This document shows positions 3,447 through 17,968 of a DNA stretch of 64,000 nucleotides, one piece after another. Every line of letters starts with the position of its first letter. The stretch's first letter is position 1. Origin of the DNA: Bryobacterales bacterium (GTDB lineage: Bacteria > Acidobacteriota > Terriglobia > Bryobacterales > UBA6623); NCBI GenBank assembly GCA_026713545.1, contig JAPOOG010000048.1:1-64000 (forward strand). The letters run 5' to 3'. The notes under the pieces were generated by a model that worked only from the letters and a program-made list of their open reading frames with translations, was not told where the DNA came from and made no database searches. A program made the translations under genes and the position numbers.

Positions 3447-3474
3447 TTGACTTTGGAGGGCTGGGATGTATACT
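3447..3474 (+). promoter_or_regulatory. Sigma70-type promoter of candidate small RNA
   Basis: TTGACT at 3447-3452 and TATACT at 3469-3474 are separated by 16 bp, close to the sigma70 consensus. No credible ORF follows; transcription from about 3481 would run into the hairpin terminator at 3678-3707. Confidence 0.6.
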
Positions 3475-3480
3475 TAGGCT

Positions 3481-3712
3481 AAGGAACGATGCTCGGCTAA
3501 TGGTATCCGCGCAGACCTTCGGGAAAAGCGCCAGGGGTGAAGCCCCTGAGATCTGACGGCCGATGAGGCCCTTCGATCCCGGCCATGCCCGGATCGTCGG
3601 GGTTGCTTTACACTCATTCGAGTACGCAACCGACCAGCTGGGACGCAAGTTAGATCCGAGCTAAGTCCTACCACATCAAAGACCGCGCTACGTAGAGCGC
3701 GGTCTTTTTATT
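3481..3712 (+). ncRNA. Candidate structured non-coding RNA, family not recognised
   Basis: A roughly 230-nt transcript is predicted between a strong promoter and an intrinsic terminator. It can fold with a closing helix (3491-3500 pairs with 3650-3661, 10 bp with a 2-nt bulge) around three hairpins: CAGGGG/CCCCTG (3532-3548, extended by CAGA/TCTG), CGATCC/GGATCG (3574-3596) and GGTTGC/GCAACC (3601-3631, with ACTC/GAGT inside). Signature sequences of tmRNA, RNase P RNA or SRP RNA were not found. The long-range closing helix is vaguely 6S-like, but the branched interior is not. Function unknown. Confidence 0.5.
3678..3707 (+). terminator. Intrinsic terminator
   Basis: A perfect 12-bp stem, AAAGACCGCGCT (3678-3689) with AGCGCGGTCTTT (3696-3707), a 6-nt loop, then a T-rich tract (TTATTTTT) on the plus strand. 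It also abuts the stop codon of the minus-strand gene ending at 3708, so it may serve both directions. Confidence 0.85.
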
Positions 3713-4661
3713 TTTGCGCCGGCCGTACATAGTCGTTCGGATACACATTCGCGTGAGAGCAGCTTAGTTTCAGACAGCCTTTGCGGGAACACTCAAATTG
3801 TACTCCTTTCAGCGGGCGGCCGGCGAACTGAACGTCGTGGTGAAATCCACCTAACAAGGGTACGCCAAAGCGGAACCACGATCTCATGAAGTGCTTCCTC
3901 TCCTCATGTGAGGAGTTCTCTGACAGCTTCGGGGGACGTCCGTGAAACATGCGGCCATAAGGGAACAAAAGGCTACGGAAATCGGATAAAACGAACTTAT
4001 TCGCTCCAGTCGGAACAGACTTGCAAAGATCATCGCTTGTAACCTTAACCTTCCGCACGCAATCGATCGGATTGCTCCAGGAATCGGTTTGTTGCAGCGT
4101 TCTGAATATGTCCGACATACGTTCTGTTTTAGATATGCGGAAGTTCCCGGGTGGCAAGAATAGCGGTTCCTGGTCGCTAACAGAAGCAAGACGCCGCTTG
4201 AAAGACGTGAGAAACTGACGAGAAGCCTTCTCAAGCGAGGATACGACATAGCGTTTAGCGTGATCGAGATCATGTCGATACTGTCGGCCGGAGGCGTCGT
4301 AGCCCGCCATGCGGTTCAGCCGCACCGGGAAGGCAAAAAACTCAAACTCAGAGAGCAAGTACTCCTCATCACTTGCGGGGACATAGGCCAAGAGCAGGTG
4401 TTGGGGCCGCTGCGGATCCGGATGGCTGTTCAGTTGTCTCCAAACGTAATGACTGACCGCTTTAATCAGCATCTCCACCGTATCTTTGCTGTACAGTTGT
4501 TTTCCGTGACTGGGCGATGCCTGATGAATAACACGTGCTTTGAGGGAGGGACTTGTCTTGACCGATTCTGCGACCCTACTGCAGATGGGATGGGGAAGTC
4601 CGGCGAGTAGCACGAGGGGCACTTCGTCTTTTTGTTTAAGGCCCGGTCGGTTCCGCTTCAT
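3708..4661 (-). CDS. Unknown protein with C-terminal Cys/His motif, second gene of LOTUS operon
   Basis: A 317-residue protein that I do not recognise. No signal peptide or membrane segment is visible. The C-terminus holds C291-x4-C296-x4-C301-x-H303, which could be a small zinc-binding knuckle. Basic and aromatic residues are frequent, compatible with nucleic-acid binding, but there is no catalytic signature I can name. It starts 4 bp after the LOTUS gene and ends at the hairpin terminator, so the two genes almost certainly form one transcript. The position beside hsdR suggests an accessory, possibly defence, role; this is inference from context. Confidence 0.7.
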   Translation of the reverse strand: MKRNRPGLKQKDEVPLVLLAGLPHPICSRVAESVKTSPSLKARVIHQASPSHGKQLYSKDTVEMLIKAVSHYVWRQLNSHPDPQRPQHLLLAYVPASDEEYLLSEFEFFAFPVRLNRMAGYDASGRQYRHDLDHAKRYVVSSLEKASRQFLTSFKRRLASVSDQEPLFLPPGNFRISKTERMSDIFRTLQQTDSWSNPIDCVRKVKVTSDDLCKSVPTGANKFVLSDFRSLLFPYGRMFHGRPPKLSENSSHEERKHFMRSWFRFGVPLLGGFHHDVQFAGRPLKGVQFECSRKGCLKLSCSHANVYPNDYVRPAQK

Positions 4662-4665
4662 TACC

Positions 4666-5373
4666 CTACGCTCGCCGACTCAGTAGTAACGCAATGTCTC
4701 CGGGGATCACCATTCTCTCAGCCGTACCTGGTGGTTGAGCTTCAAGAAGCCGTTCAAGGGCGCTCAAACTTCGTTTCGCGGCACCCGAACTGAACGCCTC
4801 GATCGGAATGCCCTTGTCTTCACTCCATTTGGCTATCTTAGTCTGAAGGTCGAGGCGATCTGAGGCACTCAGTTCGCTTCGACTCCCTATCTCCAGGCCT
4901 GGTCTTCGATATCTCTCTTCGACCTGCACACACTGCTCCAGGTCAGCATGTTCAGAAGATGTTATTTCATACTTGAACGGCGGAGTCTTATGCAGAAAGA
5001 CGAACTGACCAGGTTGAATTCGCACACAGAAAGCAAGCAGAACGGACCGAGGCAAAGCCTCCAGATCAGGGACCTTCGCTTTCGCCCGACTACGATTTTC
5101 TATCCATCTTTCAACTGCTTGTTTGGCAGCCGCAGTGACGACGGCTACGTAAGCTGGAGAGTTTCTGTCTCGCACGATCAAAAGGTCCGGATCTCCGGCC
5201 TTCTCGATTACCTCGCGAAGAGTTGGTCCATCACTTCCCTTTACCACCCAGAGATTCTGGTCACGCAAACGTTTGCCAAGCTCGGCCAGTAGTAATGGGG
5301 AGCTGTTTTTTTCGTAGTGCTCATGGACGATTGTCCGAATGCTAGCGATCTGATTTTGATCATCTACCGACAT
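4666..5373 (-). CDS. OST-HTH/LOTUS-domain protein
   Basis: A 235-residue cytoplasmic protein. The first 75 residues fit the OST-HTH/LOTUS winged-helix pattern: LLLAELGKRLR, then a short strand, a helix with TLREVIEKA, and a strand pair ending LLIVRDRNSPAYVAV. LOTUS domains bind structured RNA and in bacteria often accompany NYN nucleases; no NYN domain is present here. The remainder is unrecognised. ATG 5373 is preferred over TTG 5388 because GGGAAG lies at a usable distance upstream. It is the first gene of a two-gene operon next to hsdR. Domain assignment is by pattern and needs profile confirmation. Confidence 0.6.
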   Translation of the reverse strand: MSVDDQNQIASIRTIVHEHYEKNSSPLLLAELGKRLRDQNLWVVKGSDGPTLREVIEKAGDPDLLIVRDRNSPAYVAVVTAAAKQAVERWIENRSRAKAKVPDLEALPRSVLLAFCVRIQPGQFVFLHKTPPFKYEITSSEHADLEQCVQVEERYRRPGLEIGSRSELSASDRLDLQTKIAKWSEDKGIPIEAFSSGAAKRSLSALERLLEAQPPGTAERMVIPGDIALLLSRRA

Positions 5374-5608
5374 GTTTGATCTTCCCAATTTGCTTTGGAA
5401 CCTCTATCCCACCCAGAGTACGCAACCGCTCAGGTTACTCGTGTAGCGAGCATACCGTCTTCATCGACTTCGGATCTGCAATCAGGTCCTCACAACCACA
5501 ACGTTGTTGCGTGCGGGCATCGTGGCTAAAATTATTACACTTTGTAGTGTGAGGTGCTTGCCTCGGCGGCTAGTGAATCGCCGGGAGCCCATCAGCGGAC
5601 GGAGGGCA

Positions 5609-5728
5609 GTTTTCTTCGCTCGCCAAGATTCACCTCTGAGTCAAGTGCACACGGCGATCTGGAAAAGCCGTGATTCGTGTCTCGTGATCCGCACGGACTT
5701 CGCCTCGCCACTTGGTGAGAAAGGCAGG
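5609..5728 (+). repeat. Intergenic repeats: 5' direct-repeat motif, heptamers and right end of a family A element
   Basis: The 5374-5766 gap has no convincing gene. It holds a copy of a motif also seen near 11427-11480 (5609-5660, TTCTTCGCTCGCCAAG...GAGTCAAG), a short heptamer run near 5673-5693, and a single right-hand family A end TGGTGAGAAAGGCAGG at 5713-5728. The left inverted repeat is missing, so the element is truncated or diverged. Confidence 0.65.
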
Positions 5729-5766
5729 TTCACCGTGTAGGTGGCTTTTGTTCCCAGGTCTCCGGA

Positions 5767-6672
5767 TCAGGTCTCGGGGTGGATGGACAAGGCGGGGTCG
5801 GCGATGTTGAATGCGGGACCGCCGTTCATGCTGTCCCAGTCTTCGGCCTTGAACATCCGGCCCTGACCCATGGGCCCGTCGATTTCCTTCACGGTCAGGA
5901 AGACTTTCGAGCCCTTCACGTGCCCCCAGAGCCAGTGGTAGAAGATGCCGTCGGGGAACCCTTCGCCGCGCATCCGCGAACCGTTCATCGATCCGCCCGA
6001 GCTGCCCACTTCGATGTAGGGGATGCCGTCGTGCACGATCCGCAAGAAGCGGTGCCCGTGTCCGCTCAGGACCCGATCAACGCCGTAGCGCTTGGCCAGC
6101 TCGTGCAGGCGGAAGTCCTCGCCGTCGGTGATCTTTTGGATCCAGTACTGGTGGTGAAAAATGATGAACTTCGGATCCTTGTCCTGGTGGGCTTGCAGGT
6201 CCTTCTCCAGAAAGTCGAGCTGCTCGTCATCGAGGCTGCGATTGAGGCTCGTATCGAGAATCGTGAAGTGCGCGTCCTGATAGTTGAAGCTGTAATATGT
6301 CTTGCGGCCCGATTCCTTCTCGTAGAGGGCCTTCGAGAAGTCCGACCAGACGTCATGGTTGCCCGGCGTGAAGTAGAGCGGATAGTGGCTGTAGCGCGCC
6401 CACACCGGCCGCAACTCCATCCACTGCGACTCGGCCAACTCGTCCTCCTTGCCCTGAATCGTATCGCCGACGTTGACGACGAACTCGGGGTGCATCAGGT
6501 CGATCTCGCGCCAAACGCGTCCGTAGATCTGCGGCTGGGCTCCGCCGGTGCGGTCGCCCATGATGGCGAAACGGAAGTCGTTCTTCGGCTCATTGACCGC
6601 CTTCAAGCCGATCAGGGCAAAGGTAATGAGAATGACGGCGTTGACAGCCCAGACTCGAGAGGATTTCGTCAT
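5767..6672 (-). CDS. Exported calcineurin-like metallophosphoesterase
   Basis: A 301-residue protein with an N-terminal hydrophobic segment (residues about 8-26) that should direct export or anchor it. Metallophosphoesterase blocks appear in order: GDRTG, GDT, GNHD, a HH pair, and GHGHR near residue 200. Block I reads GDR rather than GDxH, as in several phosphoesterase subgroups. The fold hydrolyses phosphomono- or diesters with two metal ions; the substrate cannot be predicted. The gene is monocistronic, with TAGAAT exactly 6 nt before the ATG, suggesting a leaderless transcript. Confidence 0.85.
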   Translation of the reverse strand: MTKSSRVWAVNAVILITFALIGLKAVNEPKNDFRFAIMGDRTGGAQPQIYGRVWREIDLMHPEFVVNVGDTIQGKEDELAESQWMELRPVWARYSHYPLYFTPGNHDVWSDFSKALYEKESGRKTYYSFNYQDAHFTILDTSLNRSLDDEQLDFLEKDLQAHQDKDPKFIIFHHQYWIQKITDGEDFRLHELAKRYGVDRVLSGHGHRFLRIVHDGIPYIEVGSSGGSMNGSRMRGEGFPDGIFYHWLWGHVKGSKVFLTVKEIDGPMGQGRMFKAEDWDSMNGGPAFNIADPALSIHPET

Positions 6673-6678
6673 GCTGGG

Positions 6679-6684
6679 ATTCTA
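6679..6684 (-). promoter_or_regulatory. -10 element directly before phosphoesterase ATG
   Basis: On the minus strand TAGAAT is followed by six bases and ATG (6672). Initiation 6-7 nt downstream of the -10 would fall on the start codon. No good -35 is visible. Confidence 0.4.
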
Positions 6685-6831
6685 ACAGTGATTTGCTTCG
6701 TGACGATGACGAAGATTGGCGCGACTCGTTTTTCTCAAAGCGCTGTTGCGTCACATCGAGAAGCCGTTGCTGCTTGTCCGGAACCGGCTGCCGGCCCCCC
6801 GCAGCGAAAGCAGCGGGAGACGCAGGACACC

Positions 6832-6860
6832 TTGACATTGTAGCCACATGTGTCTACAAT
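6832..6860 (+). promoter_or_regulatory. Toxin-antitoxin promoter with overlapping palindromic operator
   Basis: TTGACA (6832-6837) and TACAAT (6855-6860) with a 17-bp spacer form a near-consensus sigma70 promoter. The spacer holds a near-perfect palindrome, TTGTAG-N-CACATGTG-N-CTACAA (6838-6859), placed for autorepression by the antitoxin. The start codon at 6868 is 7 nt after the -10, so the mRNA is probably leaderless. Confidence 0.75.
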
Positions 6861-6867
6861 TGCTGCG

Positions 6868-7158
6868 ATGAAGACAGTAGGTGTTCGAGAGATTAAAAAC
6901 CGCCTGAGCGCCTACCTGCGCATGGTGGAGAACGGCGAGCGGGTGGCCGTCACCCACCGAGGACGGGTCGTGGCCGAGATCGGGCCGCCCACCCACGCCA
7001 CCGAGGAAGACGCGCACGCCGAACTGCGGCGCCGCGCCCGAGCAGGGAGCGTTCGCCTCGGCGCCCCGAACCGGCCGGACCTCTACCCCCGCCCGTCCCG
7101 CCGGCTGCCTTCCCGAATCGTGCAGGATCTGCTCGACGAGGTTCGGGGTGAGCGGTGA
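6868..7158 (+). CDS. Antitoxin, Phd/YefM family
   Basis: A 96-residue protein. The N-terminus MKTVGVREIKNRLSAYL...GERVAVTHRGRVVAEIGP is the Phd/YefM DNA-binding fold: it binds the operator and neutralises the toxin with its C-terminal tail. ATG 6868 matches the family N-terminus better than the upstream GTG at 6850, which lies inside the promoter. It overlaps the toxin gene by 4 bp (GTGA). Autoregulation is expected from the palindrome between the -35 and -10. Confidence 0.88.
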   Translation: MKTVGVREIKNRLSAYLRMVENGERVAVTHRGRVVAEIGPPTHATEEDAHAELRRRARAGSVRLGAPNRPDLYPRPSRRLPSRIVQDLLDEVRGER

Positions 7159-7595
7159 ATCTGTACGCGGAGACGAGCGCCGTCGTGGCGTGGCTCCTTG
7201 ACGAAGAGCACAGTGATCGTGCCTGGGCTCAACTGACAGCCGCCGATGTCATCTTTACGTCCGACCTGACCCTCATCGAATGTGATCGGGTGTTTCGCCG
7301 CGCGGCCGCCATCGGACGAGTTACCGCGAGCGAATCGTTGCAGCTTCACGCGATCATCGACACGGCCTCCGCCCATTGGACCCTCCTCGCCATGGATGCA
7401 GAAATCGTCCAGCGTTCTCGCCGGTCGTTTCCTTGCGAACCGATCCGTGCGCTCGACGCTATTCATCTCGCAACAGCACTGGCGGTTCGGAACCTGTCGC
7501 CCGATGTGCAGGTGCTGTCATTGGACGCTCGGATTCGTGACAACGCGGCCTCCCTCGGGTTGCCGGTGGCGCCGGCGGCCGGCCGGCAACCGTGA
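7155..7595 (+). CDS. PIN-domain toxin, VapC-like
   Basis: A 146-residue PIN-domain ribonuclease expected to cleave RNA until bound by the upstream antitoxin. Acidic residues fall at the family positions: E6 in YAETSA, E42 in LIECDR, D101 in ALDAIHLATA and D124 in SLDARIRDNA. The first is Glu where VapC proteins normally have Asp (YLDTSA), which may alter metal binding. It starts with GTG overlapping the antitoxin stop. The stop codon is followed immediately by CAAGTTTTTCC, the leading motif of repeat family B. Confidence 0.87.
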   Translation: MNLYAETSAVVAWLLDEEHSDRAWAQLTAADVIFTSDLTLIECDRVFRRAAAIGRVTASESLQLHAIIDTASAHWTLLAMDAEIVQRSRRSFPCEPIRALDAIHLATALAVRNLSPDVQVLSLDARIRDNAASLGLPVAPAAGRQP

Positions 7596-8020
7596 CAAGT
7601 TTTTCCTCCGCCCGTGGGCGGGTTATTGAAAAGGCCGTGAATCGAAAAAAGGCCGTGATTCGTGTCTCGTGTCTCGTGTCTCGTGATTCGTGAACCAAAA
7701 ACCGAGACAGACGGAACGGCCGTTGCTCCAAGGCAGCTTGTGTTCATGCCGGGTCGCATAAGAGCCGTGATTCGTGATTCGTGTCTCGTGATTCGTGACC
7801 CAAAAACTAAGCAGGTGGTATGGCCGATGCTCCAAGGCAGCTTGCGTCAGCAGCCCGTGGAAAAAGTCCCGCTGCATTCAAGCGGCGATGCATCCCGGCT
7901 GAACTGCGTTGCTCCTCGGTCGACTATGTCCAATATGCTCCCTTGCCGCACCTTGTCAGCCGGGCGCAGCGCCGTTCTCGGTGCTACGCGGGGTTTCGAC
8001 GCGGGCTGTGAGGATAGGCT
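7596..8020 (+). repeat. Repeat cluster: family B lead, heptamer arrays and family C copy 1
   Basis: The gap between vapC and the next gene is made of repeats. 7596-7619 matches the leading part of family B. 7654-7695 is a six-unit heptamer array (CGTGATT, three CGTGTCT, CGTGATT, CGTGAAC). Two blocks ending GCTCCAAGGCAGCTTG (7712-7740 and 7811-7846) recur at 9052-9087, 9321-9359 and 12623-12664. 7829-8015 is the first copy of family C, repeated at 9070-9250. No gene is supported here. Confidence 0.8.
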
Positions 8021-12561: not shown

Positions 12562-12830
12562 AAGGCCGTGATTCGAAGAAAGGCCGTGATTCGTGTCTCG
12601 TGTTTCGTGACCCAAAATTCTAAGCAGGCGGTACGGCCGTTGTTGCTCCAAGGCAGCTTGCGTTGAGGCTTTGTCTCGTGATTCGTGAAAAGCCTTCAAG
12701 GCCGTGTTGCAGGCGCGGGACGTAACCTGCATTTTTCACCACCTGACGTCCGTAGCACGCGATAAAAAGGCCGTGATTCGTGATTCGTGATTCGTAAAAA
12801 ACCTTCAATGCCGTGTTGCAGGATTGAGAC
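12562..12830 (+). repeat. Repeat cluster: heptamers and truncated family A element
   Basis: Heptamers at 12585-12612 (CGTGATT, CGTGTCT, CGTGTTT, CGTGACC), then the GCTCCAAGGCAGCTTG block, more heptamers near 12667-12689, a family A left terminus CCTGCATTTTTCACCA at 12726-12741, and heptamers again at about 12772-12796. The element ends without a right terminus before the next gene. Confidence 0.75.
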
Positions 12831-17741: not shown

Positions 17742-17968
17742 CGTGTTTCGTGATTCGTGTCTCAATAACCCCGTGATTCGTGTCTCGTGATTCGTGTCTC
17801 GTGAAAACCTTTGGCGGCGGCCTGGTTTGCTCCAGAAGAAATGCCTGACGGCCTATGAACCGTAAAAGCCGTGTTTCGTGAAAACCTTCAAGGCCGCGGC
17901 ACCGGCGCGCGCGTCGTCCTGACGGCCCTCACACACACTTCACCTCGCCGTGTGGCGAGAAATGCAGG
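17742..17968 (+). repeat. Heptamer arrays and family A right half downstream of clpP
   Basis: Heptamers run at 17742-17762 and 17772-17806 (alternating CGTGATT and CGTGTCT). The family A right half follows, with a final terminus TGGCGAGAAATGCAGG at 17953-17968. It touches the frdD stop codon (minus strand, 17969-17971). No left terminus is visible. It separates two convergent transcription units. Confidence 0.78.

Follow-up and report, generated by a model that had tools for sequence, protein, structure and literature searches.

Organization of the P2-P1 locus

The window analysed here, a stretch of 64,000 nucleotides of DNA from a Bryobacterales bacterium (contig JAPOOG010000048.1 of assembly GCA_026713545.1), contains an operon of two genes, here called P2 and P1, together with a structured noncoding RNA that is encoded convergently with it. 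We consider the chances roughly even that the three components make up a mobile ribonucleoprotein module whose effector, P1, is held in check by P2 and the RNA. The features of the locus are as follows.

4666-5373, minus strand: P2, ATG at 5373 and stop at 4666, 235 amino acids
3708-4661, minus strand: P1, ATG at 4661 and stop at 3708, 317 amino acids
3481-3706 (about), plus strand: structured noncoding RNA, core conserved at 3497-3654, start placed from the promoter
3447-3474, plus strand: sigma-70-like promoter of the RNA, TTGACT-16-TATACT
3678-3707, bidirectional: intrinsic terminator common to the RNA and the operon, adjoining the P1 stop codon
117-3359, plus strand: hsdR (TIGR00348, E=3e-137)

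The tight operon described in a first-pass annotation, made from the sequence alone, was recovered with both open reading frames in place and a spacer of 4 bp (4662-4665) between them, and the strong terminator reported at its end corresponds to a 12-bp stem. A TTG at 5388 is an alternative start that would lengthen the P2 open reading frame. The G+C content of the operon is 52% compared with 60% for the window, which is consistent with acquired DNA. The operon is convergent with hsdR and the structured RNA occupies the interval between them. This tail-to-tail arrangement was correctly described, but hsdR is not a conserved neighbour of the operon. A functional link to type I restriction was rejected, as the other loci examined are without hsd genes. 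The hsdR gene lies right at the beginning of the contig, and the partner genes of the type I system are thus out of view.

Conservation and distribution of the gene pair

P2 adjoins P1 in every intact homologous locus, and the pair is kept in Acidobacteriota and in Alpha- and Gammaproteobacteria, in viral contigs as well as on plasmids. When species genomes were scanned, the P2 gene was found directly before P1 in metagenome-assembled genomes of Granulicella (L003) and Terriglobia (L004), while in Brevundimonas (L005) the C-terminus of P1 alone is left, adjoining an RHS gene. At this last locus (L005, 8908-10159) we noticed that the end of the RHS-repeat gene is cut into P1, that 52 residues of P1 are left and that the RNA looks intact. 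A search of plasmids added a Sphingobium plasmid carrying P2-P1 (L006), a plasmid filed as Synechocystis in which P2 is frameshifted (L007) and an Agrobacterium copy broken by insertion sequences (L008). The L007 region (5201-7220) is G+C-rich and its P1 is unannotated; Synechocystis looks doubtful as the host. The taxonomic class of the window contributes L018, L019, L020 and the remnant L021. One member (L009) was found in a viral contig, and the intact copies in viral contigs number two.

A shorter form of the module, subclass II, has a P2 of 131-147 and a P1 of 270-295 amino acids. Its plasmid hosts are E. coli, E. albertii, Klebsiella, Enterobacter, Aeromonas, Acinetobacter and Komagataeibacter, and in L041 it lies between the tail genes of a viral contig of the P2-like phage type. 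Comparison of the subclasses with hhalign showed homology of P1 (probability 97-98%, E=1e-10 to 7e-15) as well as of the P2 N-terminus (probability 97%, E=4e-11). P1 and P2 each have an omega of about 0.2 in close pairs (E. coli with Klebsiella), which indicates that they are real proteins under purifying selection.

A structured RNA accompanies the operon

As a single sequence, the window RNA (about 225 nucleotides) folds much more stably than its shuffles (z=-4.34), and the same place in the other loci, once aligned, shows clear conservation of the RNA. The RNAalifold consensus has 35 pairs, 23 of them with compensatory changes. A structure completed by hand on eight loci, and in part chosen on the very alignment that was used to score it, has 40 pairs, 22 of which are changed on both sides; 90.6% of its cells are paired against 78.2% after shuffling and at most 49.4% when the structure is slid by one column. 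Its covariation score is 0.504, compared with 0.264 for the shuffled and at most 0.172 for the slid structures, and none of 500 shuffles reached the structure measures. A covarying long-range helix spans the multiloop, pairing CYG with CRG.

Because of the way in which the 40 pairs were chosen, an independent test with the covariance model R2, built from the window, L003, L004 and L006 only, carries more weight. The model found the RNA at exactly the predicted place in L018 (E=8.7e-34), L019 (E=1.7e-35), L021 (E=7.5e-23) and L005 (E=1.4e-12). These matches, together with the covariation across the eight loci, strongly support the idea raised in the first-pass annotation that the neighbouring RNA belongs with the operon. 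All eight RNA cores are preceded, at an equal distance, by a promoter-like site, which is strongest in the window, L003 and L006; about 1.5 such sites would be expected by chance in the region of the window promoter. Rfam gave only chance-level terminator matches at both gathering and permissive thresholds.

Among 396 sampled genomes of the phylum the RNA model matched the window only, and five strong matches were obtained among 399 of the class, all adjoining P1 or a P1 remnant. P1 itself occurs in six genomes of the class sample, and the sole one without the class I RNA is L020, a member of the divergent subclass. The two samples overlap in part and several of these loci served to train the RNA model, but the absence of the RNA away from P1 is independent of both circumstances. 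The RNA is therefore specific to the module. Two 20-bit matches in genomes G611 and G655 of the class sample, with neither P1 nor P2 nearby, were judged to be chance matches rather than true copies.

The subclass II RNAs give no match to the class I model, but those of E. coli, Klebsiella and the P2-like-phage contig are homologous to one another and occupy the same convergent place. The E. coli and Klebsiella RNAs are 93% identical over 322 nucleotides, whereas 29% of the synonymous sites of P1 differ, which demonstrates that the RNA is under selection. The E. coli copy carries an inserted IS256-type sequence that separates P1 from the RNA. The RNAs of L007, L009, L013, L015, L032, L034, L036 and L037 are candidates by position, promoter and folding only. 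We noticed that the Aeromonas candidate (L034, about 3745-4220) contains three GAUGGA-hairpin-GAUGGC repeats with a symmetric internal loop.

The P2 and P1 proteins

Two parts can be recognised in P2, a LOTUS-like winged helix at the N-terminus (about residues 1-80) and a conserved C-terminal IPxDIAxxLS tail. The AlphaFold model of P2 has a predicted local distance difference test score (pLDDT) of 81 and places a winged helix at the N-terminus. Its best match among solved folds (Foldseek against PDB) is the LOTUS domain of TDRD7 (3rco_B, probability 0.95, target TM 0.65), but with E=0.25 and with numerous winged helices of MarR type ranking close behind. At the level of sequence, Pfam OST-HTH (PF12872) matched no P2 member at E<=1. 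In profile-profile comparison, class I P2 aligned with Acidobacteriota OST-HTH over 74 columns (E=0.005, but probability 7%) and subclass II P2 gave no match to OST-HTH; class I P2 gave no alignment with MarR, and a PDB sequence search with the P2 profile found no match. The LOTUS assignment of the first-pass annotation is suggested by the predicted fold, finds no support in Pfam and is backed only weakly by the profile comparison; we regard the N-terminus as LOTUS-like and membership of the LOTUS family as plausible.

Bacterial OST-HTH domains are reported to be nearly always fused to an LK/DUF88 nuclease and to occur without conserved gene neighbourhoods (Anantharaman et al., PMC2848206). 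P2 resembles them in its predicted winged helix, for which the TDRD7 LOTUS domain is the best fold match. Unlike them, its LOTUS-like domain belongs to a small partner protein that is accompanied by a conserved neighbour and by an RNA, and Pfam found no nuclease domain, including the usual LK/DUF88 (NYN), in either P2 or P1.

In P1, alignment of the homologues showed a central LxLP..N, R264/G266, C291 and D310 to be invariant and H274, D276, N305 and P308 to be nearly so. The C-terminal domain follows the pattern R-x-G, H-x-[DN], an invariant cysteine and N-x-[YF]-P/T-x-D. A zinc-finger reading of the tail was rejected, as the C-x4-C-x4-C-x-H arrangement is lost in L003 and others. Of the tail cysteines of the window only C291 is invariant, and the Cys/His tail that the first-pass annotation took as characteristic of P1 is an accident of this one sequence. 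The tail of subclass II has a different set (H/H/C/H/C). P1 is a putative effector which may be an enzyme or a toxin.

Neither P1 nor P2 has relatives in Pfam, NCBIfam, PADLOC or PHROGs, and a PDB sequence search with the P1 profile was empty. The best PADLOC matches (0.004-0.054) are partial only; PADLOC 2.0 gives no credible match for either protein, in agreement with the earlier statement that neither gene fits a known defence system. By these comparisons P1 belongs to an undescribed protein family.

Genomic contexts

The E. coli plasmid copy is located near Gabija (GajA, E=0), and on the A. baumannii plasmid p2VB280820 (L037, 1448-3534) a ThsB-type TIR gene (E=5e-110) directly precedes P2-P1. 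The A. haemolyticus copy adjoins BrnTA, and the Klebsiella plasmids that carry the module are as small as 4.6 kb. P2-like phages bear defence cargo with a hotspot at cos (PMC9122126); unlike such cargo, the L041 module lies between tail genes. These contexts look like those of a mobile accessory module and are suggestive of defence or addiction. For a defence role, the plasmids, the prophages and the Gabija and ThsB neighbours are circumstantial evidence.

Comparison with known systems

The module resembles type III toxin-antitoxin systems (ToxIN, CptIN, TenpIN) in that both occur on plasmids and phages and pair a protein gene with an adjacent structured RNA, here proposed as a neutraliser. 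In type III systems the RNA precedes the toxin gene within one operon, whereas the module RNA is convergent, downstream of the proteins and has its own promoter. Furthermore, the class I RNA is a single multibranched fold without tandem repeats, from which the Aeromonas candidate with its repeated hairpin motifs departs, and the module includes P2 as an additional protein. The module proteins showed no sequence relation to ToxN-type toxins.

Retrons and other defence systems of noncoding RNA and reverse transcriptase are likewise mobile, combine a noncoding RNA with one or more proteins and possibly share a guard logic; unlike in retrons, P1 and P2 match no reverse transcriptase or other family and the RNA is convergent. 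AbiF-type RNA-associated abortive infection modules (PMC12373285) are also phage-borne and consist of a protein and a noncoding RNA. The module is set apart from them on family matches, as P1 and P2 have no Pfam or PADLOC relation and the RNA lies outside Rfam. No description of the module was found in the literature, with slight coverage of preprints and subscription papers. The module fits no system family tested here.

Proposed mechanism and alternatives

In the mechanism that we propose, the RNA would be produced constitutively and P2 would bind it through the LOTUS-like winged helix. P2 and the RNA would jointly keep P1 inactive, and P1, which would be toxic when released, would act as the effector, possibly as a nuclease because of its conserved His/Asn/Asp/Cys set. 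If the RNA-P2 complex were lost or altered, for example when the element is lost or a phage infects, P1 would be freed. Such a guard, which would work on the same principle as a type III toxin-antitoxin system or a retron, is the most economical reading. What the data show is that P2 and P1 are co-inherited under purifying selection, that the RNA is structured and lies convergently behind P1, and that the unit is mobile; binding, restraint, toxicity and the trigger are inferred. Somewhat more tentatively, at a little less than an even chance, we suggest a tripartite system in which a winged-helix protein and a structured RNA with a separate promoter stand guard over an effector of a new family, giving retron- or type III-like protection with neither reverse transcriptase nor tandem-repeat RNA, and which has spread via plasmids and prophages in Proteobacteria and Acidobacteriota.

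Several observations weigh against a guarded effector. The AlphaFold model of P1 has a pLDDT of 42 and no recognised fold, so the effector role is a guess. The class I RNA model gave no match on L007, L008, L009, L015 or L013, whose RNAs are thus candidates by position, and the RNAs of some subclass II loci could not be aligned with the eight-locus structure. In Acidobacteriota the module is single and flanked by unrelated housekeeping genes that vary by locus rather than by defence islands. In favour of a guarded effector, the RNA persists with promoter and terminator beside the P1 remnant at L005 and L021, as expected if the RNA is a harmless restraint and P1 a costly effector, but recent decay would produce the same picture.

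An RNA-sensing defence ribonucleoprotein would use the RNA as a decoy or sensor mimicking host RNA attacked by phage, with P1 and P2 acting on infection only and no toxin-antitoxin relation otherwise. The plasmid and viral copies of the module and its Gabija and ThsB neighbours agree with this, but the defence neighbours are few and P1 and P2 match no known defence family, and we consider it unlikely. Similarly improbable in our view is a regulatory or maintenance module, in which the RNA would regulate the operon for plasmid or prophage stability or exclusion and no effector would kill. In its favour, the module is frequent on plasmids, and the common terminator on which RNA and operon converge makes transcriptional interference possible; however, the compensatory conservation of the structure goes well beyond what antisense regulation needs, and the module occurs on chromosomes away from mobile genes too. 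An RNA-guided system, which the first-pass annotation had found conceivable, with a guide in the variable loops of the RNA and the uncharacterised P1 with its conserved polar residues as the guided nuclease, is very improbable, as the RNA matches neither the remainder of its own genome nor the phage collection, as a CRISPR or OMEGA guide would, and its variable parts are mostly hairpin loops closed by covarying stems.

A mobile module that joins a new family of RNA to two new families of protein would amount to an RNA-protein conflict system of a new class, and bacterial LOTUS-like domains would gain their first conserved RNA partner. Since small E. coli, Klebsiella and Acinetobacter plasmids carry the module, a contribution to plasmid stability or to phage resistance can be tested directly in laboratory E. 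coli.

Other features of the window

Near the module, at 6850-7595, the window carries an ordinary type II toxin-antitoxin system consisting of a PhdYefM antitoxin and a PIN-domain toxin. We also observed an interspersed intergenic repeat, GTGATTCGTG / GTGTCTCGTG, with 17 and 10 copies respectively, all on the plus strand and none on the other. The copies range over positions 5670-35832 of the window, for example at 7655-7788, 12586-12780 and 17750-17794.
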